DNA from: Owenweeksia sp.
GTDB lineage: Bacteria > Bacteroidota > Bacteroidia > Flavobacteriales > Schleiferiaceae
Assembly (NCBI GenBank): GCA_028285465.1
Contig: JANQPD010000065.1
Location: forward strand, 1 to 64,000
Length of the DNA: 64,000 nt
Direction: 5' to 3'
How positions within the stretch are numbered: the stretch's first letter is position 1; every line of letters starts with the position of its first letter. Below are positions 5,466 through 48,055 of this stretch, one piece after another. The notes below the pieces were generated by a model. That model made no database searches. It saw nothing but the letters and a program-made list of their open reading frames with translations, and was not told the origin of the DNA. Made by a program: the position numbers and the translations under genes.

Positions 5466-6872
5466 ATGAAAACAATACTCGAAAAAATACAAGCAGTAAA
5501 GGATTCTAGTGGAGAGATATTAGAGCTCAACGACATGGAGTTATCTGAAATTCCATCTGAAGTTTTCGACTTGTATGAACTCAAAGTACTAAGACTTAGA
5601 AGAAACAAAATAAAACATGTTCCAAAGGAATTAGCTCAGTTACAATCTTTAATAGAGCTTAATCTGATTGAAAACGAACTTGATGAATTCCCCAAATCAG
5701 TTTTAGAACTAAAAAACTTAGAGGTTCTACATCTAAGAAAGAACAACATATCCGAGATACCTAATGAAATTGGTCAGTTAAAAAAACTACTGCAGTTAAA
5801 TCTTGGTAATAACAACCTGACAGAGCTGCCTGAAGGAATTGGCGGGTTAACCTCTGTAGCAAATATTTTTCTTAAGAAGAACAATATTTCGAGGTTACCA
5901 AGTGCGATTAAATTTTTAAAAAATCTCAAGGAACTAAACTATGTTGAAAACCCTGTAGTCTATCCTCCAGAGGATATCCTTAGAGGAGGTTTAATGAGAA
6001 TAATTCTCTTTTTTATTCTTGAAGAGAATGACGCCTACAACAAAAGATCATTTTCGTTTAAGATACCGAAGGAATTGCGAACTGCTATAAAACAATATTT
6101 AAGCTACTTCCCTGATTATGTGGAGATTTCAAAAGGCAGGAACTTAGCATTTGAAACAAAAACTTCTGAGGATGGTGTAAGAATCGAAATGTCTCTTGAT
6201 GCAGATTTTGATGAAGTTAGTACCTACTTCAACGAGTATTTAGGATTTATAAAATCAAACATTGATTCACTTGATCCACAGATTGAAACCAATATTACGG
6301 CTCCTAAAAAGCAACTATTAATTTTGGAATTAAAACAACAAGTAACTCATTTAAAGCAACAAGTAGAGTTTAAAAATTTTCAAATTCAATTTCTGGAAAA
6401 TCAAGTAGATAACTATTACAATTTGTTAAACATAGAAAAATCGAATCCGGCAACAATTGCAATAAATGCTCTAACTCAATCAACATCCACTTCTAATTCG
6501 TCATCAGAACTCAATTCAGAAATATCAATAAACCTAAAAATAGAAATTCCTAAGCTCCAAAGTGAACTATTGGAGGCTAAAGCGAATCTTCCAAATGATG
6601 CTCCTGAGAGTCTAAAAAAGGAAATTGAAGACATTGATCATGAACTAATGGAGCAACGTGAAATTGCTGACAAATCAGATGTGAACCAAGTTCCATTGAG
6701 AAAAATTAAGAGACTTTTCGACAACCTTAGTAATGAGGATTCTGAATGGAATAAGACTTTATCAAAATCTAAAAAGCTGAAAGAGTCATTGCAAAACCTA
6801 GGAAAGACATATAATAAAATAGCACAGTGGACTGGTTTACCGAATATCCCAGACCTTCTTTTGAATCTATAA
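5466..6872 (+). CDS. Leucine-rich-repeat and coiled-coil protein, possible conflict-system sensor
   Basis: Start at 5466 (MKTILEKIQ) is preferred because AAGG lies close upstream; an ATG at 5451 is possible. About residues 20-165 are six to seven leucine-rich repeats of the LxxLxLxxNxIxxIP type ending in NPVVYPPEDIL. Then comes an alpha/beta stretch (about 200-275), a long coiled coil (ELKQQVTHLKQQVEFK...), a Ser/Thr linker and a helical C-terminus ending KIAQWTGLPNIPDLLL. There is no signal peptide, so it is probably cytoplasmic. LRR plus coiled coil plus a small helical end is the build of bacterial NLR-like or effector-associated proteins, but no NTPase or effector domain is visible. The A+T-rich gene and two neighbours form an accessory cluster. 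Confidence 0.75.
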   Translation: MKTILEKIQAVKDSSGEILELNDMELSEIPSEVFDLYELKVLRLRRNKIKHVPKELAQLQSLIELNLIENELDEFPKSVLELKNLEVLHLRKNNISEIPNEIGQLKKLLQLNLGNNNLTELPEGIGGLTSVANIFLKKNNISRLPSAIKFLKNLKELNYVENPVVYPPEDILRGGLMRIILFFILEENDAYNKRSFSFKIPKELRTAIKQYLSYFPDYVEISKGRNLAFETKTSEDGVRIEMSLDADFDEVSTYFNEYLGFIKSNIDSLDPQIETNITAPKKQLLILELKQQVTHLKQQVEFKNFQIQFLENQVDNYYNLLNIEKSNPATIAINALTQSTSTSNSSSELNSEISINLKIEIPKLQSELLEAKANLPNDAPESLKKEIEDIDHELMEQREIADKSDVNQVPLRKIKRLFDNLSNEDSEWNKTLSKSKKLKESLQNLGKTYNKIAQWTGLPNIPDLLLNL

Positions 6873-33496: not shown

Positions 33497-33973
33497 TTAA
33501 GCGATCTGCTGAAGACTAGTTCCCAATGCTCTTTTCAGGTTTTCTTTAAGCTGGATAAGCTGTTGTGCCAATTGGGTATGGGTGAGCAACATCTCCCTGT
33601 CCAACACGAGAAAGTGTTCAAAGCACCGCTGGTCTATAAAGATGGTGGCGGTTGGCTCCAGGCTTACCCAGTGTGTACTGATAAAGCGTTGCTGCAGGAA
33701 CTCTTCGAGCCCTACCATATAGCCTTTTTCAAACTGAAGACTCAGGGAAGTGCCAAACCGTTGTTCTACTGCTCCCGAGAGCACCCAGTAAAAACCCTTG
33801 GCTGCATCACCGGCCCTGAAAAGGGTTTCCCCGGCATGGTCAAACACAATATAACTGCTTTGCAAGGCTATGTCTTCCAGCAAAGCGGAATCCGCCTCCT
33901 TGGGAAGTAATTCTTTCAATAGGGATATGATCTCCGGGACACTCACAGCATTTGGCTCAAATGAAGTAGCCAA
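33497..33973 (-). CDS. Cyclic nucleotide-binding-domain protein without DNA-binding domain
   Basis: The 158 residues cover the beta-barrel of a Crp/FNR sensor (SYIVFDHAGETLFRAGDAAKGFYWVLSGAVEQRFG, given here as adjacent pieces, then GYMVGLEEFLQQ) and a long C-helix (TQLAQQLIQLKENLKRAL), but no helix-turn-helix. Full-length family members have about 220 residues, so this is a sensor-only form. It is downstream of the FNR-like gene on the same strand, 41 bases after it, with an FNR-type palindrome in between. It could modulate the regulator by forming mixed dimers; this is speculation. Confidence 0.75.
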   Translation of the reverse strand: MATSFEPNAVSVPEIISLLKELLPKEADSALLEDIALQSSYIVFDHAGETLFRAGDAAKGFYWVLSGAVEQRFGTSLSLQFEKGYMVGLEEFLQQRFISTHWVSLEPTATIFIDQRCFEHFLVLDREMLLTHTQLAQQLIQLKENLKRALGTSLQQIA

Positions 33974-34000
33974 AGTACTGGGACACTCAGCTTTTGAAAA

Positions 34001-34012
34001 TGATATTTGTCA
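34001..34012 (-). promoter_or_regulatory. FNR-like palindrome upstream of the sensor-only gene
   Basis: TGAT-ATTT-GTCA differs from the other sites in this window by carrying one T-type and one C-type half. The TANNTTTG-like element (GTACTTTG, minus strand, 33971-33978) is one base off the usual 33-base spacing and overlaps the start codon, so the site is less certain than the others. Confidence 0.4.
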
Positions 34013-34014
34013 GG

Positions 34015-34734
34015 TCAGTCAAAAACGGCTGCCACTTCTCGCAGGGCTTCCGGATCTTCGAGTTTTATCCTACGTCCTTTGGTGCTGATGTACCGGTCTT
34101 CTTTCATTTCCGAAAGCAGCCGAATGGCCGATTCCGTAGCGGTACCCACCATGTTGGCCAACTCCTCACGGGTCAGCTTTACGTCCAAGTACCCTTCTTC
34201 ATCCTTTCCAAAAGTGGTTTGTAGGAGCAGCAGTATCTCGGCCAGGCGCTCCCTAACCGTTTTTTGCGCAAGACTGGCAATCATTTTCCCGGCTTCACCC
34301 AACTCCCTGCACGACAGTTTCAGGATGTTCAAAGAAAATTTTGGGTTTTGTTCAATTACTTCAAAAAAGGATGACTTTGGGATATAACAGGCATAGGTAT
34401 CTTCGAGGGCAGTGATAGAAGCACTGATCGGCTGATCACTGAGTATGCTCCGGTAGCCGATCAGGTCTCCGTTGGTGGCAAAACGCAGGATCTGCTCCTT
34501 TCCCTCTGTGCCAATTTTATAGAGTTTTAACTTGCCCTTATGGATGCAGTATATGCCCTGGGGGCGTGCACCTTCATGCATTACTACCTGGCCCTTGCGA
34601 AAAGACACACAGGTTTTTAGCTTACTCACCACATCTAACTCTTCGGTTCCCAGGTTATGAAAGGCACTGTTTGCCTTGTTTTGGCAAAACTGGCAATGGA
34701 TGGGAGCTTCAAGTTCTTCTTTCAGACTCTTCAT
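34015..34734 (-). CDS. FNR-type Crp/FNR transcriptional regulator
   Basis: The 239-residue protein has IHCQFC near residue 12 (as in E. coli FNR IHCQDC), a cyclic-nucleotide-like sensor barrel (VVMHEGARPQGIYCIHKGKLK) and the HTH LTREELANMVGTATESAIRLL. Three of the four [4Fe-4S] cysteines of E. coli FNR are in place (C14, C17, and C116 in TYACYIP); the third of the N-terminal set is missing, though C42 or C63 might substitute. The recognition helix keeps E and R but has I for the FNR serine. It is the likely controller of the TGAY-N4-RTCA sites before the cbb3 genes. Confidence 0.88.
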   Translation of the reverse strand: MKSLKEELEAPIHCQFCQNKANSAFHNLGTEELDVVSKLKTCVSFRKGQVVMHEGARPQGIYCIHKGKLKLYKIGTEGKEQILRFATNGDLIGYRSILSDQPISASITALEDTYACYIPKSSFFEVIEQNPKFSLNILKLSCRELGEAGKMIASLAQKTVRERLAEILLLLQTTFGKDEEGYLDVKLTREELANMVGTATESAIRLLSEMKEDRYISTKGRRIKLEDPEALREVAAVFD

Positions 34735-34786
34735 AATGCATCAAAAATAGGGCTTACAAAGCGTATTTAACAAATGTGTATGAATG

Positions 34787-36394: not shown

Positions 36395-36438
36395 ATGACC
36401 TAGGTCATTTTGCAAACGTATTCAATATCCCATTTTTG
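36395..36438 (+). promoter_or_regulatory. FNR-like site and -7 box of ccoI
   Basis: ATGACCTAGGTCAT at 36395-36408 (palindrome TGAC-N4-GTCA) is centred 33 bases upstream of CATTTTTG (36431-36438), a TANNTTTG-like element. This puts the site at about -40 from the predicted start, the class II activator position. The transcript would begin just before the ATG at 36444, which favours the second ATG, 36468, as the start of translation. Confidence 0.7.
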
Positions 36439-36467
36439 CAGCGATGAAAGCCCCCGGGGAGAAAAAG

Positions 36468-38807
36468 ATGGAATGCACCCATTGCCACCAACCGGTAACG
36501 GATGCCTTATGGAATGAGGCGCAGGATAAGGTGTATTGTTGCTATGGCTGTAAAGTAGTGGATGAACTGCTGGATGGAAGCGGGAACCTACTGAAGTCAA
36601 CGGACCTGGACATAAAGGCATTTGCCTATCTGGAAGAAAAAAAGATCCTCCGTTCACTTTTGGAATTTAACGAGGGGCTCTTTTCCAGGGTAAGCATTCA
36701 CCTGCCCGCCATCCACTGTTCCAGCTGTATTTATTTGCTGGAAAGCCTGCCCGAGGTAGAAGAAGGTATTTTGGAAGTGCAGGTGCATTTCACCAAAAAA
36801 CAGGCCAGTATTACGTTTAAAAACAACCTCATCTCCCTGTCAAAGCTGGCGGCTTTACTGGATTATATTGGCTACCCCCCTGATTTTCAAACCAAGCTGG
36901 GCACTGGGAAAAAGAAGAAGAATGTATTGCTTATCCAGCTGGGCGTGGCCGGTTTCTTTTTCGGCAATACCATGTTGCTGGCCTTGCCTGAATATTTTGA
37001 TGATAGCCTGGGCGCGGATGCTGCTTTGCAAACTTTTTTCCGTTTCCTGATGATGGGTTTCAGTTTGCCTGTATTGCTCTTTAGTGCCAAAGATTATTTC
37101 ATCAACGCCTTTAAATCCCTACGGGCTGGTGTGCTGAGCATAGACCTACCCATTGCCCTGGGTATTGCCGTTCTTTTTCTGCGTTCGGTATTTGAAGTAT
37201 TCAGCCAGCAGGGACCGGGTTATTTTGATAGCCTGTGCGGCCTGGTCTTTTTCTTATTGATCGGCAAGTGGTACCAGCAAAAAACCTATCAGAATTTCAC
37301 CTTCGACCGTGACTTTCGTTCGTTTATTCCACTGGCGGCCAATTTGCTCCTAAGCAATGGCAAAGAAAAACCCATCGCGGTAGACGACTTGCAAAAAGGA
37401 GACGTCATCCTTTTGAGAAAAGGAGAAGTGCTGCCCGCAGACGCCATTTTGCGTAGTGAAAGTGCGTTGCTGGATTACAGCTACATAACAGGAGAGTCAT
37501 TGCCGATAGAGAAGAGAAAAGATGAAACCCTCTATGCCGGTGCACGGGTAGAAGGGGCAGCCATACAACTGGAGATATCCAGCACTGTGGACCGCTCTTA
37601 CCTCTCTTCCTTGTGGGGAAAAGAGCGCGACCGGCAGGCTCAGCACAAAGGCAGTCGCGGGTTCACCGACCGGATATCGCAGTATTTTACCCCCGCCATT
37701 ATCCTCATCGCACTCGGAGCAGCAGGCATCTGGAGTACGGTAGATACCGCAAAAGCCATAACGGTATTTACGGCCGTACTTATTGTTGCCTGCCCCTGTG
37801 CGCTGGCCCTGGCCGAGCCTTTTGCAGGAGGCAGCCTGATGCGCTGGTTTGGCGTACACGGCTTTTTCTTGAAAAACGTAGCCGTACTAAACCGTTTACA
37901 GGAAGTGGATTATCTGGTTTTTGATAAAACGGGTACCCTTACCGAGCAGCACAACATGCAGGTAGAATGGAAGGGCGATCCGCTTAGCCCGCAGGAGAAG
38001 GTGGCCGTTGCTTCCTTAGCGGCCAACTCCCCGCATCTGCTCTCCAAAGCCATTGCCACGCACCTTCAGGTCGAAGGGGCCCACCCGCACCTCAGCGATC
38101 AGTTTGCCGAAAAGATTGGCCAAGGCGTAGAAGCCCGCATTACCGGGCAACACTATAAACTCGGCAATGCCACTTTTGTAGGGCTGCCCAACTCCAAAGC
38201 AGGCACCCGGGTTTTTGTACAAAAACAATCCCGGCTCCTCGGTTACTTCAGTTTTCACCAAAAAAGCCGGAGTAGGCTCACCCAGGTAATCCGAAAACTA
38301 AGGACTACTTACCGCCTCTCCCTCTTGAGTGGGGATAACGAAAGCGAACGCAAGCGCTTCGAAGGCGTTTTCGGGCCCGGTGCGGACCTGCGCTTTAACC
38401 AATCTCCTCGCGATAAACTTCAATACCTGGAACGCCTGCAGGCGCAAGGCCATAAAGTACTCATGTTGGGAGACGGGCTCAATGATGCGGGGGCCTTGAA
38501 ACAAAGCAATGTGGGCATCAGCCTTTGTGAAAAGGACGTAAACTTTTTCCCGGCCAGTGATGCTTTGCTGATGGCACACTCTTTTGATAAGCTCGAAGCT
38601 TTCATCCGCCTGAGCAAGAAAAACAAACACGTAATATTCAAGGCTTTTGCGCTTTCGCTTTTTTACAACCTGGGTGGACTCAGCTTTGCCGTGGCCGGGG
38701 TATTGAGTCCTTTGATCTGTGCCATATTGATGCCCGTCAGCTCCATTAGCGTGGTGGTATATACTACGCTGGCCAATCGCTACCTCGTGAAAAAAGCCTT
38801 TGGTTAA
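36468..38807 (+). CDS. ccoI: cbb3 oxidase copper-translocating P-type ATPase (CcoI/FixI)
   Basis: The start at 36468 (MECTHC) has an AG-rich ribosome site upstream; the ATG at 36444 is too close to the predicted transcript start. The N-terminus has CTHC and CYGC cysteine pairs and a metal domain (LPAIHCSSC). The ATPase core shows YSYITGESLPIEK, the ion motif CPCALALAEP, DKTGTLTE with the phosphorylated Asp, and GDGLNDAGAL. CcoI delivers copper across the inner membrane for cbb3 oxidase assembly. It ends 4 bases inside the convergent radical SAM gene and is separated from the oxidase genes by 3 kb, but shares an FNR-like promoter with them. Confidence 0.92.
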   Translation: MECTHCHQPVTDALWNEAQDKVYCCYGCKVVDELLDGSGNLLKSTDLDIKAFAYLEEKKILRSLLEFNEGLFSRVSIHLPAIHCSSCIYLLESLPEVEEGILEVQVHFTKKQASITFKNNLISLSKLAALLDYIGYPPDFQTKLGTGKKKKNVLLIQLGVAGFFFGNTMLLALPEYFDDSLGADAALQTFFRFLMMGFSLPVLLFSAKDYFINAFKSLRAGVLSIDLPIALGIAVLFLRSVFEVFSQQGPGYFDSLCGLVFFLLIGKWYQQKTYQNFTFDRDFRSFIPLAANLLLSNGKEKPIAVDDLQKGDVILLRKGEVLPADAILRSESALLDYSYITGESLPIEKRKDETLYAGARVEGAAIQLEISSTVDRSYLSSLWGKERDRQAQHKGSRGFTDRISQYFTPAIILIALGAAGIWSTVDTAKAITVFTAVLIVACPCALALAEPFAGGSLMRWFGVHGFFLKNVAVLNRLQEVDYLVFDKTGTLTEQHNMQVEWKGDPLSPQEKVAVASLAANSPHLLSKAIATHLQVEGAHPHLSDQFAEKIGQGVEARITGQHYKLGNATFVGLPNSKAGTRVFVQKQSRLLGYFSFHQKSRSRLTQVIRKLRTTYRLSLLSGDNESERKRFEGVFGPGADLRFNQSPRDKLQYLERLQAQGHKVLMLGDGLNDAGALKQSNVGISLCEKDVNFFPASDALLMAHSFDKLEAFIRLSKKNKHVIFKAFALSLFYNLGGLSFAVAGVLSPLICAILMPVSSISVVVYTTLANRYLVKKAFG

Positions 38808-39808
38808 AAGCTCGCGCAATCCTTGCAAAGCTCCAGTTCTGCTTTGCGTCCTTCTTTGAGCAAGTGTACATAACGCATGCGCTCCTGCCCCCGGTAAAGG
38901 TCAAACAGGTCTGTTTCAAGTACATTCCCTACTACGCCTTTTTTGTTCAGGTCGTTGCAGCAAACGGTTACCGCTCCATCGGGAAGCACTACCAATTGCC
39001 TTAGCAGCATCTCGCAACCTTTTTTGTTTACTTCCTGTTGTTCTCCAATATCAACCTGGCCACCCCAATCGTGTAACCTACGGTATTCCACTGAATCGAG
39101 CATGCGGGCAATACGCTGAAAATCGGGCGCCATCCAACTGTCGTTCAGAGGATGAGGGTGAGGCACTATGCTGATGCCAAAGGTTCTTACTTTCGGAGAT
39201 AGTTCATTTTTCAGACGGATAAAATGTTCCACATTAGCCGCAAACTTTTCCCAGCGTGCGTTTACCCGCATTTCTTCGAACGCCTCAGGCGATCCTCCGT
39301 CCAGGCTAAAGCCTACCTCATCCAGAGTATGTAAAGACAACAAGGTCCTGGATAGCTTTTCGCGCAGCAGCATGCCGTTGGTGAGTAAAATTACCCTTGG
39401 ATAAGCCTTGTTCTTCAAATGAAATATTTTCTTGTAGTGCGCCAATCGCTCAAAAAGCTCTACCCGCCGGGGGTGCATCAGGGTCTCCCCTCCATTGTGC
39501 AGGTTCAGGGTTTTTACCCTGCTGAAGCGCGGATCGTGCAACAGGCTTTCCATTACCTTGTCGAGCACTTTTGTGCTCATATAGCTTTTTGGCTTCAAGT
39601 GGTCGAGCGCACAAAACCGGCAACGCAAATTACAGGCGCTGCTGAATTCCAGGTTGATCTCTTTGGTGGAGGCCAGACTTCCCGAGTATGGACCGTGGAA
39701 ACGGAAGTACTGGTAGTCGTATTTAACCTCCTGCGCTTTTTTAACCAGCCGCCAGGCGGCCGGATTTCCGGCTATGGTGCTTTTAAGTTTACGCGTCCAT
39801 TTTGACAT
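38804..39808 (-). CDS. Radical SAM protein with SPASM domain
   Basis: CNLRCRFCAL near the start holds the CxxxCxxC cluster motif of radical SAM enzymes. The next part is the TIM-barrel core (NLHNGGETLMHP, FSLDGGSPEAFEEM), and the C-terminal end (VVLPDGAVTVCCNDL, ELCKDCASF) looks like a SPASM domain with extra Fe-S clusters. The start is uncertain: 39808 (MSKWTRK) is used because the predicted FNR-controlled transcript would begin near 39852, almost on top of the first ATG (39850). The substrate is unknown; typical targets are peptides or cofactors. It is convergent with ccoI and divergent from yceI. Confidence 0.85.
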   Translation of the reverse strand: MSKWTRKLKSTIAGNPAAWRLVKKAQEVKYDYQYFRFHGPYSGSLASTKEINLEFSSACNLRCRFCALDHLKPKSYMSTKVLDKVMESLLHDPRFSRVKTLNLHNGGETLMHPRRVELFERLAHYKKIFHLKNKAYPRVILLTNGMLLREKLSRTLLSLHTLDEVGFSLDGGSPEAFEEMRVNARWEKFAANVEHFIRLKNELSPKVRTFGISIVPHPHPLNDSWMAPDFQRIARMLDSVEYRRLHDWGGQVDIGEQQEVNKKGCEMLLRQLVVLPDGAVTVCCNDLNKKGVVGNVLETDLFDLYRGQERMRYVHLLKEGRKAELELCKDCASF

Positions 39809-39882
39809 AAGCGGGCATATGGCACAGGCCATGCAGATTTTTATATTCAATTAAACAAAAAACTGAAAAGATCAAGTTTTAT

Positions 39883-39902
39883 AAACTGATATGTATCAGT
39901 TT
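39883..39902 (-). promoter_or_regulatory. FNR-like palindrome facing the radical SAM gene
   Basis: AAACTGATATGTATCAGTTT, a perfect 20-base palindrome apart from the centre, with TGAT-N4-ATCA as core (39887-39898). Thirty-three bases toward the gene, the minus strand has GTTTTTTG (39856-39863), keeping the TTTG end of the -7 box. Confidence 0.65.
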
Positions 39903-39907
39903 AAACG

Positions 39908-39951
39908 ATGACTTGCGTCATTTATAAAGGAAGGTACGGGGGATATTTTCG
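39908..39951 (+). promoter_or_regulatory. FNR-like site and -7 box of the yceI-porin operon
   Basis: ATGACTTGCGTCAT at 39908-39921 (TGAC-N4-GTCA) is centred 33 bases upstream of TATTTTCG at 39944-39951 (one mismatch to TANNTTTG). Its centre is 22 bases, two helix turns, from the centre of the neighbouring palindrome. Confidence 0.7.
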
Positions 39952-39969
39952 TAGCGTAATTCTTATAAA

Positions 39970-40551
39970 ATGAGATTTTTCGCACTGCTGCCCCTCCTCT
40001 TCTTCTCCAGTCTTCCCGATATATTCCTGCACACCTACAAAACCAACGAAGCCCAATCTACGATGTCTATATCAGGCACTTCAACCCTGCACGATTGGGA
40101 AATAACAGCCGAAAGCTTTACGGGAGAATTAAACATAGACCGCTTTACTGACTCCATAGACATCAAAAACCTTAACCTCGCCATTCCCGTAAAAAGCCTG
40201 AAGAGCGGCAAAAGTGCCATGGACCGGAATACATACAAGGCATTGAAGAGCGAAACGCATAAAACAATCGAGTATACCCTCATCAGGGTAACAAAACAAG
40301 AACGCGTTTCCGCAGATGAACTGCAGCTGCATACCCTGGGTACACTTACGGTGGCTGGCCAAGGCGAAACCCTGAACATCCCTTTACGCGCAAAACTAAG
40401 CAAGGCCGGGGTAAGCTTTTCAGGCAGTACGGAATTGAACATGACCCAGTTTGGAGTGGAGCCTCCTTCCTTCATATTCGGCACGGTAAGCACGGGCGAC
40501 CGCATTACCATTCAATTTAACATCAACTATAATTTAAACGCTCAGAAATGA
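39970..40551 (+). CDS. YceI-like periplasmic lipid-binding protein
   Basis: The 193 residues have a signal peptide (FFALLPLLFFSSLPD) and the YceI lipocalin-like pattern: SISGTSTLHDWEI, LNLAIPVKSLKSGKSAMDRN, LHTLGTLTVAGQGETLNIPL and FGVEPPSFIFGTVSTGDRI. YceI proteins bind isoprenoid or other lipids in the periplasm; some are linked to quinone or stress. It overlaps the porin gene by 4 bases (ATGA) and lies behind an FNR-like promoter, so its ligand may belong to respiration, possibly a quinone; that is inference. Confidence 0.88.
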   Translation: MRFFALLPLLFFSSLPDIFLHTYKTNEAQSTMSISGTSTLHDWEITAESFTGELNIDRFTDSIDIKNLNLAIPVKSLKSGKSAMDRNTYKALKSETHKTIEYTLIRVTKQERVSADELQLHTLGTLTVAGQGETLNIPLRAKLSKAGVSFSGSTELNMTQFGVEPPSFIFGTVSTGDRITIQFNINYNLNAQK

Positions 40552-41831
40552 ACCGAACAAGTTTTATGAAATCCTTTGTTACCGCAGCTTTTTTAGCAGG
40601 TACTACTTCGTTATTCGCGCAATTGGAAAGCGAACGCAGCATGCAACAATTTCGCTACCCCGACCAAAGAGGCATAAACCGATTTGAGGCCCTGGACGAT
40701 GACGGAACGCCTTTTGAGGGGGTAAAAGTGCGCTTAGGCGGGGCTTTTGCCGTACAATTCCAGGCACTGGATCACTCCACCGGTACTACACAGGATACCC
40801 TTATCGACCTGGGTTCAAACTTTAACCTGCCCACCGCCAATCTCGACCTCAACGTAGCCCTGGCGGACGGAGTGCGTATGCATATGCGTACATACTTATC
40901 TTCTCGCCACCACCCCGAAAGCTGGGTAAAAGGGGGGTATGTGCAGATCAGTAAGCTGGACTTTATCCGCGAAGACTTTTTGAAATCCGTAATGGACATC
41001 ACCACTGTGAAGATAGGTTTGATGGAGATCAATTATGGCGATTACCACTTCCGGAGATCCGATAACGCCACGGCCATTTTCAACCCCTTTGTGGGCAATC
41101 TTATCCTGGATGGATTTAATACAGAGGCAGGTGCCGAAATATATGTAACCCCCGGTGATTTTCTTTTTATGGCCGGTGTAACCAACGGCAAACTCAACCA
41201 GGGAGTGAATAATCCGGGGAGTTTTGGGCCGGTGTTTTTGGCCAAAGCGGGTTATGACAAGCAAATGAACGAAGACCTGCGCCTGCGCCTTACGGCTTCG
41301 CTGTATACTACTTCAGAATCCGGACGTAACTTTCTCTACGATGGCGATCGGGCAGGCTCCCGCTTTTACCTGGTAATGGAAAACCAAGATGCCAACCCCG
41401 TCAGCAACTTCCGTTCCGGTCGTTACAGCCCGGGTTTTAACAATGAAATTACGGCCATTATGATCAACCCTTTTGTGAAATTTAAAGGACTGGAACTTTT
41501 GGGTACAGTAGAGTTGACCAGTGGAAAGGCCAATGCTGAAGCCAACACCCGTAACTGGACCCAATTGGCCGGGGACCTGGTATACCGTTTTGGGGAAACC
41601 GAAGACTTTTATGTAGGCGCCAAGTACAATATGGCTGCCGGTGAAGAAGCCTTCACAGGCAATGACGTAAGCATTAGCCGTGTAGAGGCCGGGGCCGGTT
41701 GGTACATGACCAAAAACATGATGCTAAAGGCTACTTACGTAACGCAAACCTATGATGGTTTTGACCAAAGCAGCTTATTTCATGAAGGAAACTTCAACGG
41801 TGCTATATTAGAGGCCGTAATAAGTTTTTAA
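40548..41831 (+). CDS. Outer membrane beta-barrel porin
   Basis: The 427 residues begin with a signal peptide (FVTAAFLAGTTSLFAQ) and then show amphipathic strands ending in aromatic residues (KVRLGGAFAVQFQALDH, VRMHMRTYLSSRH, DFYVGAKYNMAAGE) and a C-terminal strand ending in F (GAILEAVISF). This is the pattern of a carbohydrate- or phosphate-type porin of Bacteroidota. The solute is not known. Its translation is coupled to yceI. The ccoS gene follows after 62 bases with its own FNR-like promoter, so the operon probably ends here. Confidence 0.85.
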   Translation: MNRTSFMKSFVTAAFLAGTTSLFAQLESERSMQQFRYPDQRGINRFEALDDDGTPFEGVKVRLGGAFAVQFQALDHSTGTTQDTLIDLGSNFNLPTANLDLNVALADGVRMHMRTYLSSRHHPESWVKGGYVQISKLDFIREDFLKSVMDITTVKIGLMEINYGDYHFRRSDNATAIFNPFVGNLILDGFNTEAGAEIYVTPGDFLFMAGVTNGKLNQGVNNPGSFGPVFLAKAGYDKQMNEDLRLRLTASLYTTSESGRNFLYDGDRAGSRFYLVMENQDANPVSNFRSGRYSPGFNNEITAIMINPFVKFKGLELLGTVELTSGKANAEANTRNWTQLAGDLVYRFGETEDFYVGAKYNMAAGEEAFTGNDVSISRVEAGAGWYMTKNMMLKATYVTQTYDGFDQSSLFHEGNFNGAILEAVISF

Positions 41832-41833
41832 GC

Positions 41834-41876
41834 TGATATATATCATTTCTGCCTCATACAGGCACCTTTACATTTG
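41834..41876 (+). promoter_or_regulatory. FNR-like site and -7 box of the cbb3 oxidase operon
   Basis: TGATATATATCA at 41834-41845 (TGAT-N4-ATCA) is centred 33 bases upstream of a perfect TACATTTG at 41869-41876. The predicted start of transcription is about 14 bases before the ccoS ATG. It lies just after the porin stop codon. Confidence 0.75.
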
Positions 41877-41893: not shown

Positions 41894-42046
41894 ATGTCTG
41901 CCATTTACATACTCATTTCTGTAAGTTTTCTCGTAGCGGTAGGTTTTTTAGCTGCCTTTATCTGGAGCATCAAAAATGGCCAGTACGATGACGACTACTC
42001 CCCCGGGGTACGCATGCTGAAAGACAATCATAAATCCAAGCAATAA
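41894..42046 (+). CDS. ccoS: cbb3-type oxidase assembly protein CcoS
   Basis: The 50-codon ORF, too short for the usual cut-off, starts with a membrane helix (AIYILISVSFLVAVGFLAAF) followed by WSIKNGQYDD and a charged tail, which matches CcoS. CcoS is needed for insertion of copper and heme into cbb3 oxidase. The gene is the first of the operon and stops 14 bases before ccoNO; it has its own FNR-like promoter. Confidence 0.92.
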   Translation: MSAIYILISVSFLVAVGFLAAFIWSIKNGQYDDDYSPGVRMLKDNHKSKQ

Positions 42047-42060
42047 TCAAAATCCCTTGT

Positions 42061-44199
42061 ATGCAACGCGAAACTTTTCATTATGACAACCGGTGGACCA
42101 GGAATTTCCTGGTGGCTACCATGATCTGGGGTATTATTGGTCTTCTCGTAGGGCTTGTCATTGCCTTGCAGTTGGTCTTCCCCGAGCTAAACATGGATAC
42201 CTCCTGGCTCACTTTCGGACGCCTGCGTGCCCTGCACACCAACGGAGCTATTTTTGCCTTTGTAGGGAACTCCATTTTTGCAGGGGTCTACTACTCGCTG
42301 CCGCGCCTGTTGAAAACCCCAATGGCCAGCAACTTTTTAAGTAAGCTGCACTTCTGGGGCTGGCAGCTCATCATCGTGTCGGCCGTGCTTACCCTGCCGC
42401 TGGGGATTACTTCTTCTAAAGAATATGCGGAGCTGGAGTGGCCGATCGATATCGCCATTGCCCTCATCTGGGTAACCTTTGGGGTAAACATGTTCTGGAC
42501 CATACTGAAAAGAAGGGAGCGTCACCTCTACGTAGCCATCTGGTTTTACATTGCCACTTTCGTGACCGTGGCCCTGTTGCATATTGTGAACAACCTGGAG
42601 CTTCCGGTTTCTTTCCTCAAGTCGTACTCCGTGTTTGCCGGGGTACAGGATGCCCTCGTGCAATGGTGGTACGGGCATAATGCAGTGGCTTTCTTTTTAA
42701 CCACCCCGGTGCTCGGTTTGATGTATTACTTCATTCCCAAAGCAGCCAATCGCCCGGTATACTCCTACCGCCTTTCGATCGTACACTTCTGGGCTTTGAT
42801 ATTTATCTATATCTGGGCCGGCCCACACCACCTGCTGTATACCAGCTTACCTGATTGGGCACAAAGCTTAGGTACAGTTTTCTCCATCATGCTCATCTTC
42901 CCCAGCTGGGGGGGTATGATCAACGGTTTGCTTACGTTGCGTGGCGCCTGGGACAAGGTGAGGGAAAGTGCCGTACTTAAGTTTTTCGTAGTGGCGGTAA
43001 CCTGTTATGGTATGGCCACCCTCGAAGGGCCCCTGCTGAGTTTGAAAAACATCAATGCCATTGCGCACTTCACCGACTGGATCCCTGCGCACGTGCACAT
43101 TGGTACATTGGGATGGAACGGCTTTATGATCTTCGGTATCATCTACTGGTTGATGCCCAAGCTCTACCAGACCAGCCTTTTCTCGCATAAAATGGCGAAT
43201 GCGCATTTCTGGATCGGTACCCTGGGCATCATCTTCTGGGCCTTGCCTATGTACGTAGCCGGCTTTACTCAAAGCCTGATGTGGAAAGAGTTTAACCCTG
43301 ATGGCACCCTGGTATACGGCAACTTCCTGGAAACCGTTACCCAGATCATTCCCATGTACGCCTTACGTGCCTTAGGGGGCACCCTGTACATCGTTGGTAT
43401 GGTGATCATGGCGGTAAACGTGATCCGTACCGTAGCTTCCGGTAAATTCCTGAAAAACGAAGAAGACAGTGCTGTACCCTTTGGCCGCGTGTTCAATAAG
43501 CCCAAGGGAGAACACTGGCACCGCTGGATCGAAAGACGCCCCGTTCAGTTGTTGGTGGTAAGCCTCGTAGTAGTGCTGATCGGAGGGATCATCGAGATCG
43601 TGCCTACTATGATGGTAGAAAGCAATATTCCTACCATTAAAAGTGTAAAACCCTATACAGCCCTGGAACTGGAAGGCCGTGACCTATACATCCGGGAAGG
43701 CTGTAATGCCTGCCACTCGCAAATGGTGCGCCCTTTCCGTTCTGAGACCGCCCGTTACGGGGAATACTCTAAGGCCGGGGAATTTGTTTACGATCACCCC
43801 TTCCTGTGGGGAAGTAAACGCACGGGCCCCGACCTGCATCGCCTGGGTGGAAAATACCCACACAGCTGGCACTACAACCACATGCTGGAACCCACCAGTA
43901 TGAGTCCGGGTTCTATTATGCCCCGCTACCCCTGGCTTTTTGAAAACAGCCTGGATACCAGTCTTACCAAAGCGAAACTACAAGCCATGGTAAGTTTGGG
44001 CGTGCCTTATGAAGAAGAGTACATCAGCAATTACCAGGTGTACCTGACAGAGCAACAAGATGCGATCGCCAATGAACTGCGCGACCAGATCGAAGACCTG
44101 GAAATAAACAGCAATGACGAGATCATCGCCCTTATTGCCTACCTGCAACGCCTGGGGGTAGACATCAAGGCTATGGATACCGAAACCGCAGAAAAATAA
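42061..44199 (+). CDS. ccoNO: cbb3 cytochrome c oxidase, fused CcoN-CcoO subunit
   Basis: The 712 residues join CcoN (about 1-480) and CcoO (about 500-712). CcoN has twelve or so membrane helices with RALHTNGAIFAFVGNSIFAG and WWYGHNAVAFFLTTPVLG, where histidines ligate heme b, heme b3 and CuB. CcoO follows as a membrane-anchored monoheme cytochrome c with EGCNACHSQMVRPF (CxxCH). The complex reduces O2 to water with high affinity. The fusion occurs in Bacteroidota. Spacing of 5 bases to ccoQ. Confidence 0.95.
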   Translation: MQRETFHYDNRWTRNFLVATMIWGIIGLLVGLVIALQLVFPELNMDTSWLTFGRLRALHTNGAIFAFVGNSIFAGVYYSLPRLLKTPMASNFLSKLHFWGWQLIIVSAVLTLPLGITSSKEYAELEWPIDIAIALIWVTFGVNMFWTILKRRERHLYVAIWFYIATFVTVALLHIVNNLELPVSFLKSYSVFAGVQDALVQWWYGHNAVAFFLTTPVLGLMYYFIPKAANRPVYSYRLSIVHFWALIFIYIWAGPHHLLYTSLPDWAQSLGTVFSIMLIFPSWGGMINGLLTLRGAWDKVRESAVLKFFVVAVTCYGMATLEGPLLSLKNINAIAHFTDWIPAHVHIGTLGWNGFMIFGIIYWLMPKLYQTSLFSHKMANAHFWIGTLGIIFWALPMYVAGFTQSLMWKEFNPDGTLVYGNFLETVTQIIPMYALRALGGTLYIVGMVIMAVNVIRTVASGKFLKNEEDSAVPFGRVFNKPKGEHWHRWIERRPVQLLVVSLVVVLIGGIIEIVPTMMVESNIPTIKSVKPYTALELEGRDLYIREGCNACHSQMVRPFRSETARYGEYSKAGEFVYDHPFLWGSKRTGPDLHRLGGKYPHSWHYNHMLEPTSMSPGSIMPRYPWLFENSLDTSLTKAKLQAMVSLGVPYEEEYISNYQVYLTEQQDAIANELRDQIEDLEINSNDEIIALIAYLQRLGVDIKAMDTETAEK

Positions 44200-44204
44200 T
44201 TGCC

Positions 44205-44405
44205 ATGTTAAAGCTTATAAAACACCATATGGAAAGCATCAGCGGGATAGAGATCTATCCCCTGATCTCCTTCATCATCTTTTTTACCTTTTTTGTTTTG
44301 ATGCTTATTTATGTGCTGAAAGCGGATAAGAAGCACATGGCAGACTTAGGTGCACTCCCCCTTGATTTGGAAACCAATACCCCCGACCATGAAAAAGAAA
44401 AATAG
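44205..44405 (+). CDS. ccoQ: cbb3 oxidase small subunit (CcoQ-like)
   Basis: The 66 residues have one membrane helix (IYPLISFIIFFTFFVLMLIY) followed by a charged cytoplasmic tail, in the position between ccoNO and ccoP where CcoQ/FixQ lies. CcoQ stabilises the complex. The tail overlaps the start of ccoP by 17 bases, so it is translationally coupled. Sequence identity with proteobacterial CcoQ is low, and the name rests on size, helix and gene order. Confidence 0.8.
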   Translation: MLKLIKHHMESISGIEIYPLISFIIFFTFFVLMLIYVLKADKKHMADLGALPLDLETNTPDHEKEK

Positions 44406-45378
44406 AACCCTGACAGGCTTTTTATTGCTGGTTTTTGCCGGCGCCATAGCCGTACCTTTTATAGATGGCGACAAAGCCGCCAATCTTTTGGTAGACCCAC
44501 TTTTTTGGATGGTAGTGCTCGTTGTATTCTTCCTCATCCTGGCTTCTGCTGCCATTCATAGCGCTCTGGACAGTATCAAATACTATGTATTGCGCAAAGA
44601 AGGGCGTTTGGAAGAAGCTACCGAGGCCGAGGTAGCTGCTGCTACGGGAGAAGACTTCTTTTCTCGCCTTTGGAGAAAAATGCAGGATGCGAAGCCTATT
44701 GAGCGCGAAAGTGAAATAGACCTGGACCACAACTATGATGGCATACGCGAGCTGGACAACAATTTGCCGCCCTGGTGGCTCTGGGGTTTTTACCTGTCTA
44801 TTGCTTTTGCGGTGGTATACCTGATACGCTACCATGTGGTGCAAAGTGCGCCTTTGCAAGAGGGAGAGTACCAGGCACAAATGGCCGCTGCTGAAGTGCA
44901 AAAAGCCGAGTACCTGAAAAACGCAGCGAATCTGGTAGACGAAAACAACGTAGTAATGCTTACAGACGAAGCATTGATCTCTGATGGCTCCAAGATCTTT
45001 AACGCCAATTGTGCCGTTTGCCATGCGGCAGATGGAGGCGGGGGCGTAGGTCCCAACCTCACCGATCCGTATTGGATACACGGGGGCGACATCAAAGCCA
45101 TCTTCTCTACCATTAAATACGGGGTACCTGCCAAAGGCATGATCCCCTGGAAAGATCAGCTCAACCCTTCACAAATGCAGAAAGTGGCTTCTTATATCAT
45201 GACGCTGAAGGGAACTACACCTGCCGACCCAAAAGATGCGGAAGGAGAGTTGTATACCCCCGTAATAGAAGAAGAAATTTCACCTGCCGACAGCAGCAGC
45301 GCAAGTGACCCTGTAGAAGAAAGTGTAGCTGAAGATACCCCGACTGAGGAAACAGAGCAGCAACTCAGCGCATCATAG
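44389..45378 (+). CDS. ccoP: cbb3 oxidase cytochrome c subunit CcoP
   Basis: The ATG at 44389 gives 329 residues. Two membrane helices lie near the N-terminus (TGFLLLVFAGAIAVPF and LFWMVVLVVFFLILASAA), then a charged segment, the conserved LDNNLPPWWLWGFYLSIAF block and a single cytochrome c domain (NANCAVCHAADGGGGVGPNL). Only one CxxCH is present, while the proteobacterial subunit has two. The C-terminus is a low-complexity Ser/Glu/Thr-rich tail. It passes electrons from the donor to CcoNO. Confidence 0.92.
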   Translation: MKKKNRTLTGFLLLVFAGAIAVPFIDGDKAANLLVDPLFWMVVLVVFFLILASAAIHSALDSIKYYVLRKEGRLEEATEAEVAAATGEDFFSRLWRKMQDAKPIERESEIDLDHNYDGIRELDNNLPPWWLWGFYLSIAFAVVYLIRYHVVQSAPLQEGEYQAQMAAAEVQKAEYLKNAANLVDENNVVMLTDEALISDGSKIFNANCAVCHAADGGGGVGPNLTDPYWIHGGDIKAIFSTIKYGVPAKGMIPWKDQLNPSQMQKVASYIMTLKGTTPADPKDAEGELYTPVIEEEISPADSSSASDPVEESVAEDTPTEETEQQLSAS

Positions 45379-45416
45379 TTGCATACACCTACGGTACCAA
45401 AGGAAGAAGATTGAAA

Positions 45417-46868
45417 ATGAAGGAAGGAGAAGCACCTGAAGAAAAGGACGAGAAACGCAGCATACACATCCCTAACCCGAATTTCAGGGATCACATCGGC
45501 ACCATTGACGATGAAGGGAAACGAAAATTTCTCTACCCCCGCAAAACGAGTGGCAAATACACCAATTACCGGAGGTATGCCAGTTATGTGTTGCTGCTCA
45601 TCCTTGTGGCTACTCCTTTTATTTACGTAGACGGCAGGCCCTTTATGATGTTCAACGTGCTGGAACGGAAGTTCATCCTCTTTGGGCAGATCTTCTGGCC
45701 GGAAGACTTTTACCTGGCCGTATTGGCTATGATCATTGGCGTACTTTTCATCGCGGTGTTTACCGTAGCTTTTGGAAGATTGTTTTGCGGGTGGGTGTGC
45801 CCGCAAACCATCTTCATGGAGCATGTTTTTCGCAGGATAGAATACTGGATCGATGGCGACCGCAACCAACAGATGCGCCTGGCGGCCATGCCCTGGAATG
45901 CCGAAAAGATAAGAAAGCGTGTATTGAAGAACAGCCTTTTTTACCTGATCAGCTTTGCCGTGGCCAATATATTTATGATGTACCTCATCAGCCGCGATGC
46001 CTGGTGGGCAATCGTAAGCGATAACCCGGCCCACCACCTCAGCGGCCTGTTTACTTTACTCATCTTTTCCGGGGTATTCTTCTTCATATTTGCCTGGTTC
46101 AGGGAGCAGGTTTGCCTTATTGTATGCCCTTACGGGCGTTTGCAAAGCGTGTTGCTCGACCGCCATTCCGTAGTGATCGCCTACGATTATATAAGGGGCG
46201 AGATCCGCAGCAAATTCCGTAAGGGAGAAGACCGAGAGGCAGTGGGTAAGGGAGATTGTATCGATTGCAACCAATGCGTGGAGGTATGCCCTACCGGTAT
46301 CGACATCCGCAACGGCACCCAGCTGGAATGCATCAATTGCACGGCTTGTATGGATGCCTGCGACCACATCATGGACCGCATTAACCGCCCCAGGGGGTTG
46401 ATCCGCTACGACAGCGAGGAGAACATTGCCGAAAACAAGAAAACGATCTTTACCGCCAGGGTAATTGGCTACATGGCGGTACTTACCATATTGATAACAG
46501 GTATGAGCTTCTTGTTGGCCAGCCGTACGGAGGTGGAGGCCATTTTACTCCGCATGCCCGGTCAGCTGTACCAGAAGGTAGACGAACAGACCCTGAGCAA
46601 TGTGTACAATTACAAAATGATCAACAAAACGCCCGATGCACTCGAATTGCAGATCAGGTTGCTTGCACCGGAAGGGGAACTGAAACTTGTAGGCGCCAAT
46701 CCTATAAAGGTTCCTCCGAGCGACCTGGCAGAAGGTGCCCTGATCATATACCTGAAGAAATCCATATTGCAAAGCCGCAATACGGAAGTTACTTTAGGGC
46801 TTTATAAGGGAGAAGAACTGATCGATGAGATCGAGACCAATTTTAACGGGCCGATCGTAAGAAGGTAA
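45417..46868 (+). CDS. ccoG: cbb3 oxidase accessory ferredoxin CcoG (FixG/RdxA)
   Basis: The ATG at 45417 is used; an earlier TTG at 45411 is not needed. The protein has five membrane helices, the FixG signature GRLFCGWVCPQTIFMEHVFR, and two [4Fe-4S] clusters in CIDCNQCVEVCPTG and CINCTACMDACDHIM. The C-terminal ~100 residues are an IgD-like beta domain. CcoG is thought to reduce Cu(II) so that it can be delivered to the oxidase. Distance of 38 bases from ccoP. Confidence 0.94.
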   Translation: MKEGEAPEEKDEKRSIHIPNPNFRDHIGTIDDEGKRKFLYPRKTSGKYTNYRRYASYVLLLILVATPFIYVDGRPFMMFNVLERKFILFGQIFWPEDFYLAVLAMIIGVLFIAVFTVAFGRLFCGWVCPQTIFMEHVFRRIEYWIDGDRNQQMRLAAMPWNAEKIRKRVLKNSLFYLISFAVANIFMMYLISRDAWWAIVSDNPAHHLSGLFTLLIFSGVFFFIFAWFREQVCLIVCPYGRLQSVLLDRHSVVIAYDYIRGEIRSKFRKGEDREAVGKGDCIDCNQCVEVCPTGIDIRNGTQLECINCTACMDACDHIMDRINRPRGLIRYDSEENIAENKKTIFTARVIGYMAVLTILITGMSFLLASRTEVEAILLRMPGQLYQKVDEQTLSNVYNYKMINKTPDALELQIRLLAPEGELKLVGANPIKVPPSDLAEGALIIYLKKSILQSRNTEVTLGLYKGEELIDEIETNFNGPIVRR

Positions 46869-46922
46869 GCGCGGTTTCTACCGCACGGCCTTCTTTTGTT
46901 GTTTAACCGCAAAGAGAATACA

Positions 46923-47363
46923 ATGAAACTAAACTGGGGAACCGGAATTGCCATAAGCCTCGCGCTGTTTGCATGCCTGATGGGCTTTATGGTGTACCTG
47001 GCCATGCAGCAGGATTTTGACCTGGTGAGTGAAGATTATTACAGCGAGGAAATTGCTTACCAGGAGATCATCGACCAAAAGCAAAACACCCTGCGGCTGG
47101 AAGGAAAAGCGAGCTTACAACTGAACGAGGAGGGCGTATTTTTACAACTTCCCGCTGATCTTGAAGGAAAAACAAAAAGTTTCGAGGGCTTGATGTACCA
47201 CGAGCAGGAAGCCGATAACGACTTTAGCTTTGGGGAGGAGCACACTGAGGAAAACCGCTTTGAAATACCTTTTACACAGTTTGCCCAAGGCAAATGGATC
47301 GCCAAAATAAAAGTGCATTGTGAAGGCGTAGACTACTACTTTGATCCTCAAATCAATTTATAA
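46923..47363 (+). CDS. ccoH: cbb3 oxidase assembly protein CcoH (FixH)
   Basis: The 146-residue product from the ATG at 46923 has one membrane helix (GIAISLALFACLMGFMVYLA) and the FixH pattern DLVSEDYYSEEIAYQEIIDQ, followed by a beta-sandwich domain. FixH helps join the subunits of cbb3 oxidase. It overlaps the next gene by one base (TAATG), which argues for coupled translation. An intergenic stretch of 54 bases separates it from ccoG. Confidence 0.9.
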   Translation: MKLNWGTGIAISLALFACLMGFMVYLAMQQDFDLVSEDYYSEEIAYQEIIDQKQNTLRLEGKASLQLNEEGVFLQLPADLEGKTKSFEGLMYHEQEADNDFSFGEEHTEENRFEIPFTQFAQGKWIAKIKVHCEGVDYYFDPQINL

Positions 47364-48055
47364 TGTGGTGGAGCGCACTGCTACTGGGCCTTATCTCTTC
47401 CCTGCATTGCGTAGGCATGTGTGCTCCCCTGCAAGTGGCGGCCATCAGCGCCTTCCGGAAACAAAGCCATAAAGGGCATTTGCTGCTCTATCATGCAAGC
47501 CGCATCCTTACCTACGGCCTTTTAGGCGGTTTGGTGGGTTTGCTGGGCAAAGGCCTGGGCTTGCAAGCCTGGCAGCAGCAAACCTCCTTACTGGGCGGGC
47601 TTTTCCTTTTACTGGCTTTTGCCGCCTTTTACCTGTTGAAATTAGACCGGCACCTCCTGCGCCTGCTCTTCCCCTACCTTAGCCGTTTACGTGGAAAACT
47701 ACAACAAAACCGGGCGGCCCAAACGCTTTATTTTAGTGGGAGCGGGTTTATAAACGGGCTCCTGCCCTGTGGTATGGTATACCTGGCGCTTTTCCCGGCT
47801 ATGGGCAGCGGTACCACCTGGGCATCGGTCATGTATATGCTGTTTTTTGGCCTGGGTACTTTGCCCCTGCTGGCCCTGGCCAACCTGGGCGGGTTGAGTT
47901 TTTTGAAAAGCCGCAGCCGTTGGGTACAACGCCTTATCCCGCTAATGATCGTAAGCACCGCCCTCCTGCTGATCCTGCGCGGCATGGACCTGGGCATTCC
48001 TTACCTTTCTCCGCAATTGCCCCCGGAAACAGAACAAACTGCGGGCTGTCGCTAA
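47363..48055 (+). CDS. SafE/TauE (DsbD_2-like) membrane protein of the cbb3 operon
   Basis: The 230 residues contain six or so membrane helices. SLHCVGMCAPLQ at the start and GLLPCGMVYLALF in the middle are the paired Cys/Met motifs of the DsbD_2/SafE group found at the end of cbb3 clusters. These proteins probably take part in copper handling or thiol reduction for oxidase assembly. The gene ends the operon, whose product is next to a convergent gene 70 bases away; no strong terminator hairpin was seen. Confidence 0.85.
   Translation: MWWSALLLGLISSLHCVGMCAPLQVAAISAFRKQSHKGHLLLYHASRILTYGLLGGLVGLLGKGLGLQAWQQQTSLLGGLFLLLAFAAFYLLKLDRHLLRLLFPYLSRLRGKLQQNRAAQTLYFSGSGFINGLLPCGMVYLALFPAMGSGTTWASVMYMLFFGLGTLPLLALANLGGLSFLKSRSRWVQRLIPLMIVSTALLLILRGMDLGIPYLSPQLPPETEQTAGCR

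Follow-up and report, generated by a model that had tools for sequence, protein, structure and literature searches.

An FNR-like regulator and a conserved operator-to-promoter spacing define a probable regulon of cbb3 oxidase and copper-supply genes in Owenweeksia sp.

Is the cbb3 oxidase of Owenweeksia sp. controlled together with its copper supply by one FNR-like activator, and how would such a protein act on a promoter of the Bacteroidota type? The question is raised by a stretch of 64,000 nucleotides (positions 1 to 64,000 of the forward strand of contig JANQPD010000065.1, assembly GCA_028285465.1; the window hereafter), in which the oxidase cluster, the copper P-type ATPase gene ccoI, yceI, and a gene for a Crp/Fnr family regulator (fnr, positions 34015-34734, minus strand) lie close together. 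Class II control of cbb3 genes by FNR is well known from Proteobacteria. Promoters of Bacteroidota are unlike that of Escherichia coli, and activator action on them has been little studied. A preliminary description of the window proposed that three TGAY-N4-RTCA palindromes, at an identical distance from TANNTTTG-like boxes before ccoI, yceI and ccoS, fit class II activation at about -40 by an FNR-like protein. The analysis described here indicates that an FNR-like protein, most likely encoded by 34015-34734, probably controls a compact regulon in this region as a class II activator, from operators centred at -41.5.

All three palindromes were found where they had been placed (centres 36401.5, 39914.5 and 41839.5), and the 33 bp from palindrome centre to box centre corresponds in each case to a gap of 23 bp. 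On the plus strand, the operator TGACCTAGGTCA (36396-36407) precedes the ccoI -7 box CATTTTTG (36431-36438), the operator TGACTTGCGTCA (39909-39920) precedes the yceI -7 box TATTTTCG (39944-39951), and the operator TGATATATATCA (41834-41845) precedes the -7 box TACATTTG of ccoS-ccoNO (41869-41876). The initial list of sites was incomplete, as it omitted a tandem operator at 39887-39898, discussed below, and an operator read on the minus strand, TGACAAATATCA (34001-34012), which is followed at the same gap of 23 bp by the -7 box TACTTTGG (33970-33977) of a gene for a stand-alone cNMP-binding-domain protein (33497-33973, minus strand, Pfam domain). This gene lies directly after fnr and probably starts downstream of 33973, and its product gave no helix-turn-helix match. 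The TGACAAATATCA-N23-TACTTTGG arrangement has a counterpart, with both site and box, in each of the 12 relatives that yielded the gene. The boxes at ccoS, ccoI, yceI and the cNMP-domain gene are of the sigma-A type of Bacteroidota promoters. The ccoS box alone matches TANNTTTG in full; the ccoI and yceI boxes have five of the six fixed bases and the cNMP-domain gene box is one base off, deviations that recur at these three genes in most orthologues.

In Flavobacterium psychrophilum a TAnnTTTG box occupies -12 to -5 of mapped transcription starts (PMC9723704), which would place the centres of the boxes at -8.5 and those of the ccoI, yceI and ccoS operators at -41.5. With starts deduced in this way, the operators overlap the -35/-33 region as expected of class II sites, so that the class II position proposed earlier stands, with its centre corrected from about -40 to -41.5. 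The same location is known from Sphingopyxis granuli, where FNR boxes are centred at -41.5 before ccoN, uspA and other genes (PMC7713065).

The window contains 10 TGAYN4RTCA palindromes where 2.5 are expected, a number reached in none of 100 shuffled sequences. A box with at least five of the six fixed bases occurs at exactly gap 23 in 4 of 20 palindrome/strand combinations, namely the three promoters named initially and 34001-34012 on the minus strand; given a per-position rate of 0.0068 for such boxes, the probability of this is about 1e-5, rising to about 5e-4 with a correction for 51 candidate gaps. A scan of the source genome for exact consensus pairs was by itself too weak to define a regulon: 3 of 10 pairs with gaps of 8-38 bp were at gap 23, one of them at ccoS, one within a long open reading frame and one without an open reading frame behind it. 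That only three exact gap-23 pairs exist in this genome, two of them seemingly spurious, could be taken to mean that common palindromes and AT-rich boxes fall into line by chance. The probability of such an explanation is practically negligible, and it was rejected on the window statistics together with the conservation in relatives, the spacing histogram and the blind box profile described in the following paragraphs. Allowing one mismatch gave eight matches at gap 24 in the source genome and, at gap 23, some unproven candidates elsewhere in it: genes for an ExbB-type proton channel, a response regulator on contig C74, a beta-lactamase-fold/rhodanese protein, and YkuD, DUF6544 and MlaE proteins.

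The preference for a gap of 23 bp extends to other genomes. A search of 40 related genomes for palindrome-N{13,33}-TANNTTTG listed 139 pairs from 14 genomes, after one repeat family had been excluded by hand. Gap 23 accounted for 49 of these pairs and gap 24 for 21, against 1 to 7 (ca. 3.5 each) for the other gaps, which under uniform spacing corresponds to P ~1e-29 for the peak at 23, uncorrected for relatedness. One helical turn further away, gaps 32 and 33 were found 7 times each, a slight excess only. Among 80 named GTDB loci, mostly from uncultured Flavobacteriales and Bacteroidales, 13 had gap 23, 11 had gap 0, and no other gap occurred more than four times. Per Mb, genomes of the same order hold 2.05 exact gap-23 pairs; those from the rest of the class hold 0.80 and those from the rest of the phylum 0.12. 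The excluded family, found on several contigs of the relative G002, is a repeat beginning with TGATTGAAATCATCCTTTTTGGAGTGGACTC that occurs about 10 times before TANNTTTG boxes at variable distance, and it resembles a promoter element of a mobile or repeated kind.

Promoter footprinting was done with the CcoNO, CcoI and YceI orthologues retrieved from the relatives, counting a promoter as kept if a palindrome was followed at gap 22-24 by a box with at least four of the six fixed bases. Site and box were kept in 20 of 28 promoters for ccoI, 17 of 28 for ccoS-ccoNO and 9 of 13 best loci for yceI, nearly always at gap 23 (exactly so in 17 of the 20 ccoI promoters), and in the alignments of ccoI and of ccoS promoters the columns that stand out most are those of the box and of the operator together with its trailing T. 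When the gene-proximal palindrome was chosen blindly, regardless of any box and with palindrome-free promoters excluded, the mean box score peaked at gap 23 in all three genes, with values of 4.4 (ccoI), 4.6 (ccoS) and 5.0 (yceI) out of 6 against a background of 1.63 (standard deviation 0.38). The first base of the box differs between genes: 19 of 20 orthologous ccoI promoters have a base other than T there, and 17 of 17 ccoS promoters have T (Fisher P ~1e-9, uncorrected for relatedness). The conserved weak box of ccoI may make this gene strictly dependent on the activator. The conservation of the -41.5 geometry before orthologous genes strongly supports the initial proposal of class II activation, with a Crp/Fnr family protein as the predicted activator.

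The ccoI gene is located at 36468-38807 on the plus strand; orthologues align from 36468, and with an alternative ATG at 36444 the transcript would be almost leaderless. The yceI gene (39970-40551, plus strand) overlaps at its end with a gene for an outer-membrane, porin-like protein (40548-41831, plus strand; Pfam support is weak), and such a gene follows yceI in 8 of 9 loci. The cbb3 cluster proper (41894-48055, plus strand) comprises ccoS, a fused ccoNO, a small ccoQ-like open reading frame assigned by inspection, ccoP, ccoG, ccoH (FixH) and a gene for a DsbD_2-type protein. The joint set of oxidase, copper supply, porin and YceI, which the preliminary description had placed in one regulon, holds across the relatives. 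F. psychrophilum induces its cbb3 oxidase on oxygen limitation (PMC9723704).

The omitted tandem operator, TGATATGTATCA (39887-39898, plus strand), lies exactly 22 bp upstream of the yceI operator, and at gap 23 from it stands a weak -7 box, GTTTTTTG (39856-39863, minus strand), of a divergent gene for a Radical SAM/SPASM protein (38804-39850, minus strand, Pfam). The predicted position of this second operator is -63.5 for yceI and -41.5 for the radical-SAM gene, and that of the yceI operator is -63.5 for the radical-SAM gene. In two relative loci (L193, 3825-3858; L194, 4946-4979) the tandem pair is likewise at gap 23 from the divergent box, so that each operator would be at -41.5 for one gene and at -63.5 for the other; the radical-SAM box, weak in the window, is good in these loci (TATTTTTG in L193 and TAGTTTTG in L194). 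A spacing of 22 bp was found for 20 of 44 close palindrome pairs in the relatives, many of them at ccoS and yceI. The radical-SAM gene is a probable further member of the regulon, and a second dimer bound 22 bp upstream of the first could let the operator pair at yceI serve this gene as well. The stretch 39887-39920, with its tandem palindromes between the two genes, has the appearance of a symmetric two-way promoter.

The best candidate for the trans-acting protein is the product of 34015-34734. It contains the Pfam domains PF00027 (cNMP-binding) and PF13545, and has the Crp/Fnr fold with dimer helix and C-terminal helix-turn-helix. Its best NCBIfam match is to PRK11161 (FNR), with a score of 103 bits, well under the model's cut-off of 228. 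The AlphaFold model (predicted local distance difference test score, pLDDT, of 91) resembles the FNR proteins of E. coli and Aliivibrio fischeri (PDB 5CVR, 5E44) over the whole fold, including the N-terminal CX2C segment, with Z scores of 21.9-22.5, the highest of these for the A. fischeri protein over 227 residues. The closest solved fold is that of a Crp/Fnr regulator from Porphyromonas gingivalis, a member of the same phylum (PDB 2GAU; Z 26.1, 30% identity, 217 residues); the profile alignment with this protein begins after the N-terminal CX2C, and the comparison covers the fold. In an alignment of 57 orthologues, C14, C17 and C116, which align with C20, C23 and C122 of FNR, show no variation among sequences that include the segment, the two CX2C cysteines being found in 55 and 56 of the 57 rows. 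The FixK class, which lacks N-terminal cysteines, was rejected as an assignment, since CX2C is conserved wherever the segment is present. The recognition-helix residues E201 and R205, corresponding to the Glu and Arg of FNR, are invariant. The regulator, called present at a best E value below 1e-40 with weaker matches treated as paralogues, tracks the oxidase: 28 genomes have both regulator and CcoNO, none the regulator only, one the oxidase only and 11 neither. Genomes with the regulator contain 1.39 gap-23 sites per Mb and those without it 0.25, a fivefold difference, the former also being larger and richer in Crp/Fnr paralogues.

Several observations weigh against a regulon of this FNR-like protein. 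Only three of the four FNR cluster cysteines are present: the position of C29 (residue 23) is Ser in 44 of 57 orthologues and T, P, A or R in 11 further ones. The recognition helix departs from the E-x-x-S-R of FNR, with Ile204 at the position of Ser212 in 57 of 57 orthologues. The boxes of ccoI and yceI each depart from the consensus by one base; some relatives that possess regulator and oxidase, G001, G025 and G036 for example, lack a palindrome with box before ccoI or ccoS by the footprinting criterion; the relative G012 has two gap-23 sites and no regulator orthologue; paralogues in the source genome could bind similar DNA; and for this organism the case is built on sequence, from which starts, binding and expression are deduced. 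With respect to the helix, the inner TGAY-N4-RTCA agrees with the FNR motif, and the complete TTGAT-N4-ATCAA is absent: the base after TCA is T, not the A of FNR, in nearly all conserved promoters, and the Ile at the Ser212 position is in keeping with this change.

The altered cysteine set bears on the signal. As the third cluster cysteine of FNR is absent, the 34015 product carries a cNMP-binding domain by Pfam, and the closest solved folds include cAMP-binding CRPs as well as the Porphyromonas protein, the same regulator might use the same geometry in response to nitric oxide, redox state or a small ligand bound to a cluster-free protein. We regard this as unlikely, with an appreciable chance left to it: the two CX2C cysteines and the invariant C116 correspond to the FNR ligands C20, C23 and C122, two further cysteines are conserved (C63 in 56 and C42 in 48 of 57 orthologues), and the predicted targets are low-oxygen genes. 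For an FNR-like oxygen sensor, these data allow a tentative proposal, possible more than probable, that the 34015 type is a distinct sensor of Bacteroidota, with a cluster bound by CX2C, the counterpart of C122 and a fourth ligand unlike that of FNR, which could be the conserved Ser in place of C29, or C63 or C42. It would read a promoter code of its own, with class II operators exactly at -41.5 on TANNTTTG promoters, 22-bp tandem operators that serve a divergent pair of genes, and a single operator with opposite effects, activation of ccoI and repression of fnr.

The same operators might instead be served mainly by another Crp/Fnr paralogue, or be shared by several. The source genome encodes five Crp/Fnr relatives, and two whose genes are neighbours of those for Usp and Hsp20 on contig C74 have comparable recognition helices (the same ES-x-IR in C74:78-710 and ETISR in C74:5789-6367); the G012 sites mentioned above would also be explained. 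We consider this improbable, although the sites themselves would still be real class II operators, since linkage to the cco cluster, the operator at the regulator's own promoter (in close relatives) and co-occurrence with the oxidase are seen for no other type than that of 34015. On the latter two grounds the 34015 product keeps its place as best candidate regulator, with the reservations that it is not a textbook FNR and that paralogues may share its sites. In another Flavobacteriales genome, Crp/Fnr homologues were assigned to MalR-like carbon sensing (PMC8510549), a role that does not fit the targets found here. The C74 region (L273, 1-20000) itself contains the two Crp/Fnr paralogues, the Usp and Hsp20 genes and palindromes at 5702 and 17575, and by eye also a PfkB-like kinase and a P-type ATPase gene; it is probably a low-energy or anoxia stress island.

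The operator on the regulator's own promoter is seen in close relatives, where fnr and ccoI are adjacent and divergent. A single operator directly abuts the TANNTTTG box of fnr (gap 0), with its predicted centre at -18.5 for fnr and -41.5 for ccoI; an operator next to the fnr box was found with an exact box in 11 loci, and with a box of at least five of six bases in 13 of 80 loci. The position at -18.5 suggests autorepression, so one intergenic operator should activate ccoI and repress fnr. In the window, unlike in these relatives, no operator was found beside the fnr -7 box (TATTTTTG, 34742-34749, minus strand), and a gene for NADP isocitrate dehydrogenase (icd, NF006673; 34853-36289, minus strand) lies between fnr and ccoI. 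The repressing position in relatives, and the overlap of a site at -41.5 with the -33 region, could also be read to mean that all operators are repression sites where bound protein keeps the genes off in air. This is very improbable, since repressor sites tolerate other positions, whereas activation is expected to go with a fixed phase relative to the -7 box and with boxes whose departures from consensus are conserved.

In the mechanism that we propose for activation by the FNR-like protein, a regulator dimer would bind TGAY-N4-RTCA centred at -41.5 and contact RNA polymerase in the class II manner, thereby turning on the sigma-A promoters of ccoI, yceI with the outer-membrane protein gene, ccoS-ccoNOPGH and the cNMP-domain gene. 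Low oxygen is probably the signal, so that the cbb3 oxidase and its copper supply would be made under oxygen limitation; direct binding by the 34015 product and oxygen sensing are predictions. Similar to the proteobacterial FNR/Anr/FnrN class II promoters of cbb3 genes, such as the ccoN box of S. granuli (PMC7713065), the operators are at -41.5, the targets are cco and accessory genes, and the regulator gene is near the cco cluster. Different from these are the Bacteroidota -7 box TANNTTTG, the TGAY half site, in which the promoter-side TCA is followed by T, the presence of three of the four cluster cysteines, the Ile for Ser in the recognition helix, and the exact 22-bp tandem operators. The promoter type, altered motif, altered cysteine set and tandem arrangement make this system a variant of proteobacterial FNR control. 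No earlier description of such a regulon in Bacteroidota was found in the literature searched, which left most subscription journals outside, so prior work may exist.

The conserved spacing offers a precise geometry for a whole class of activators acting on Bacteroidota promoters. It yields a prediction for the regulation of the high-affinity oxidase in flavobacteria, and points to a relative of FNR with an unusual set of cluster ligands.

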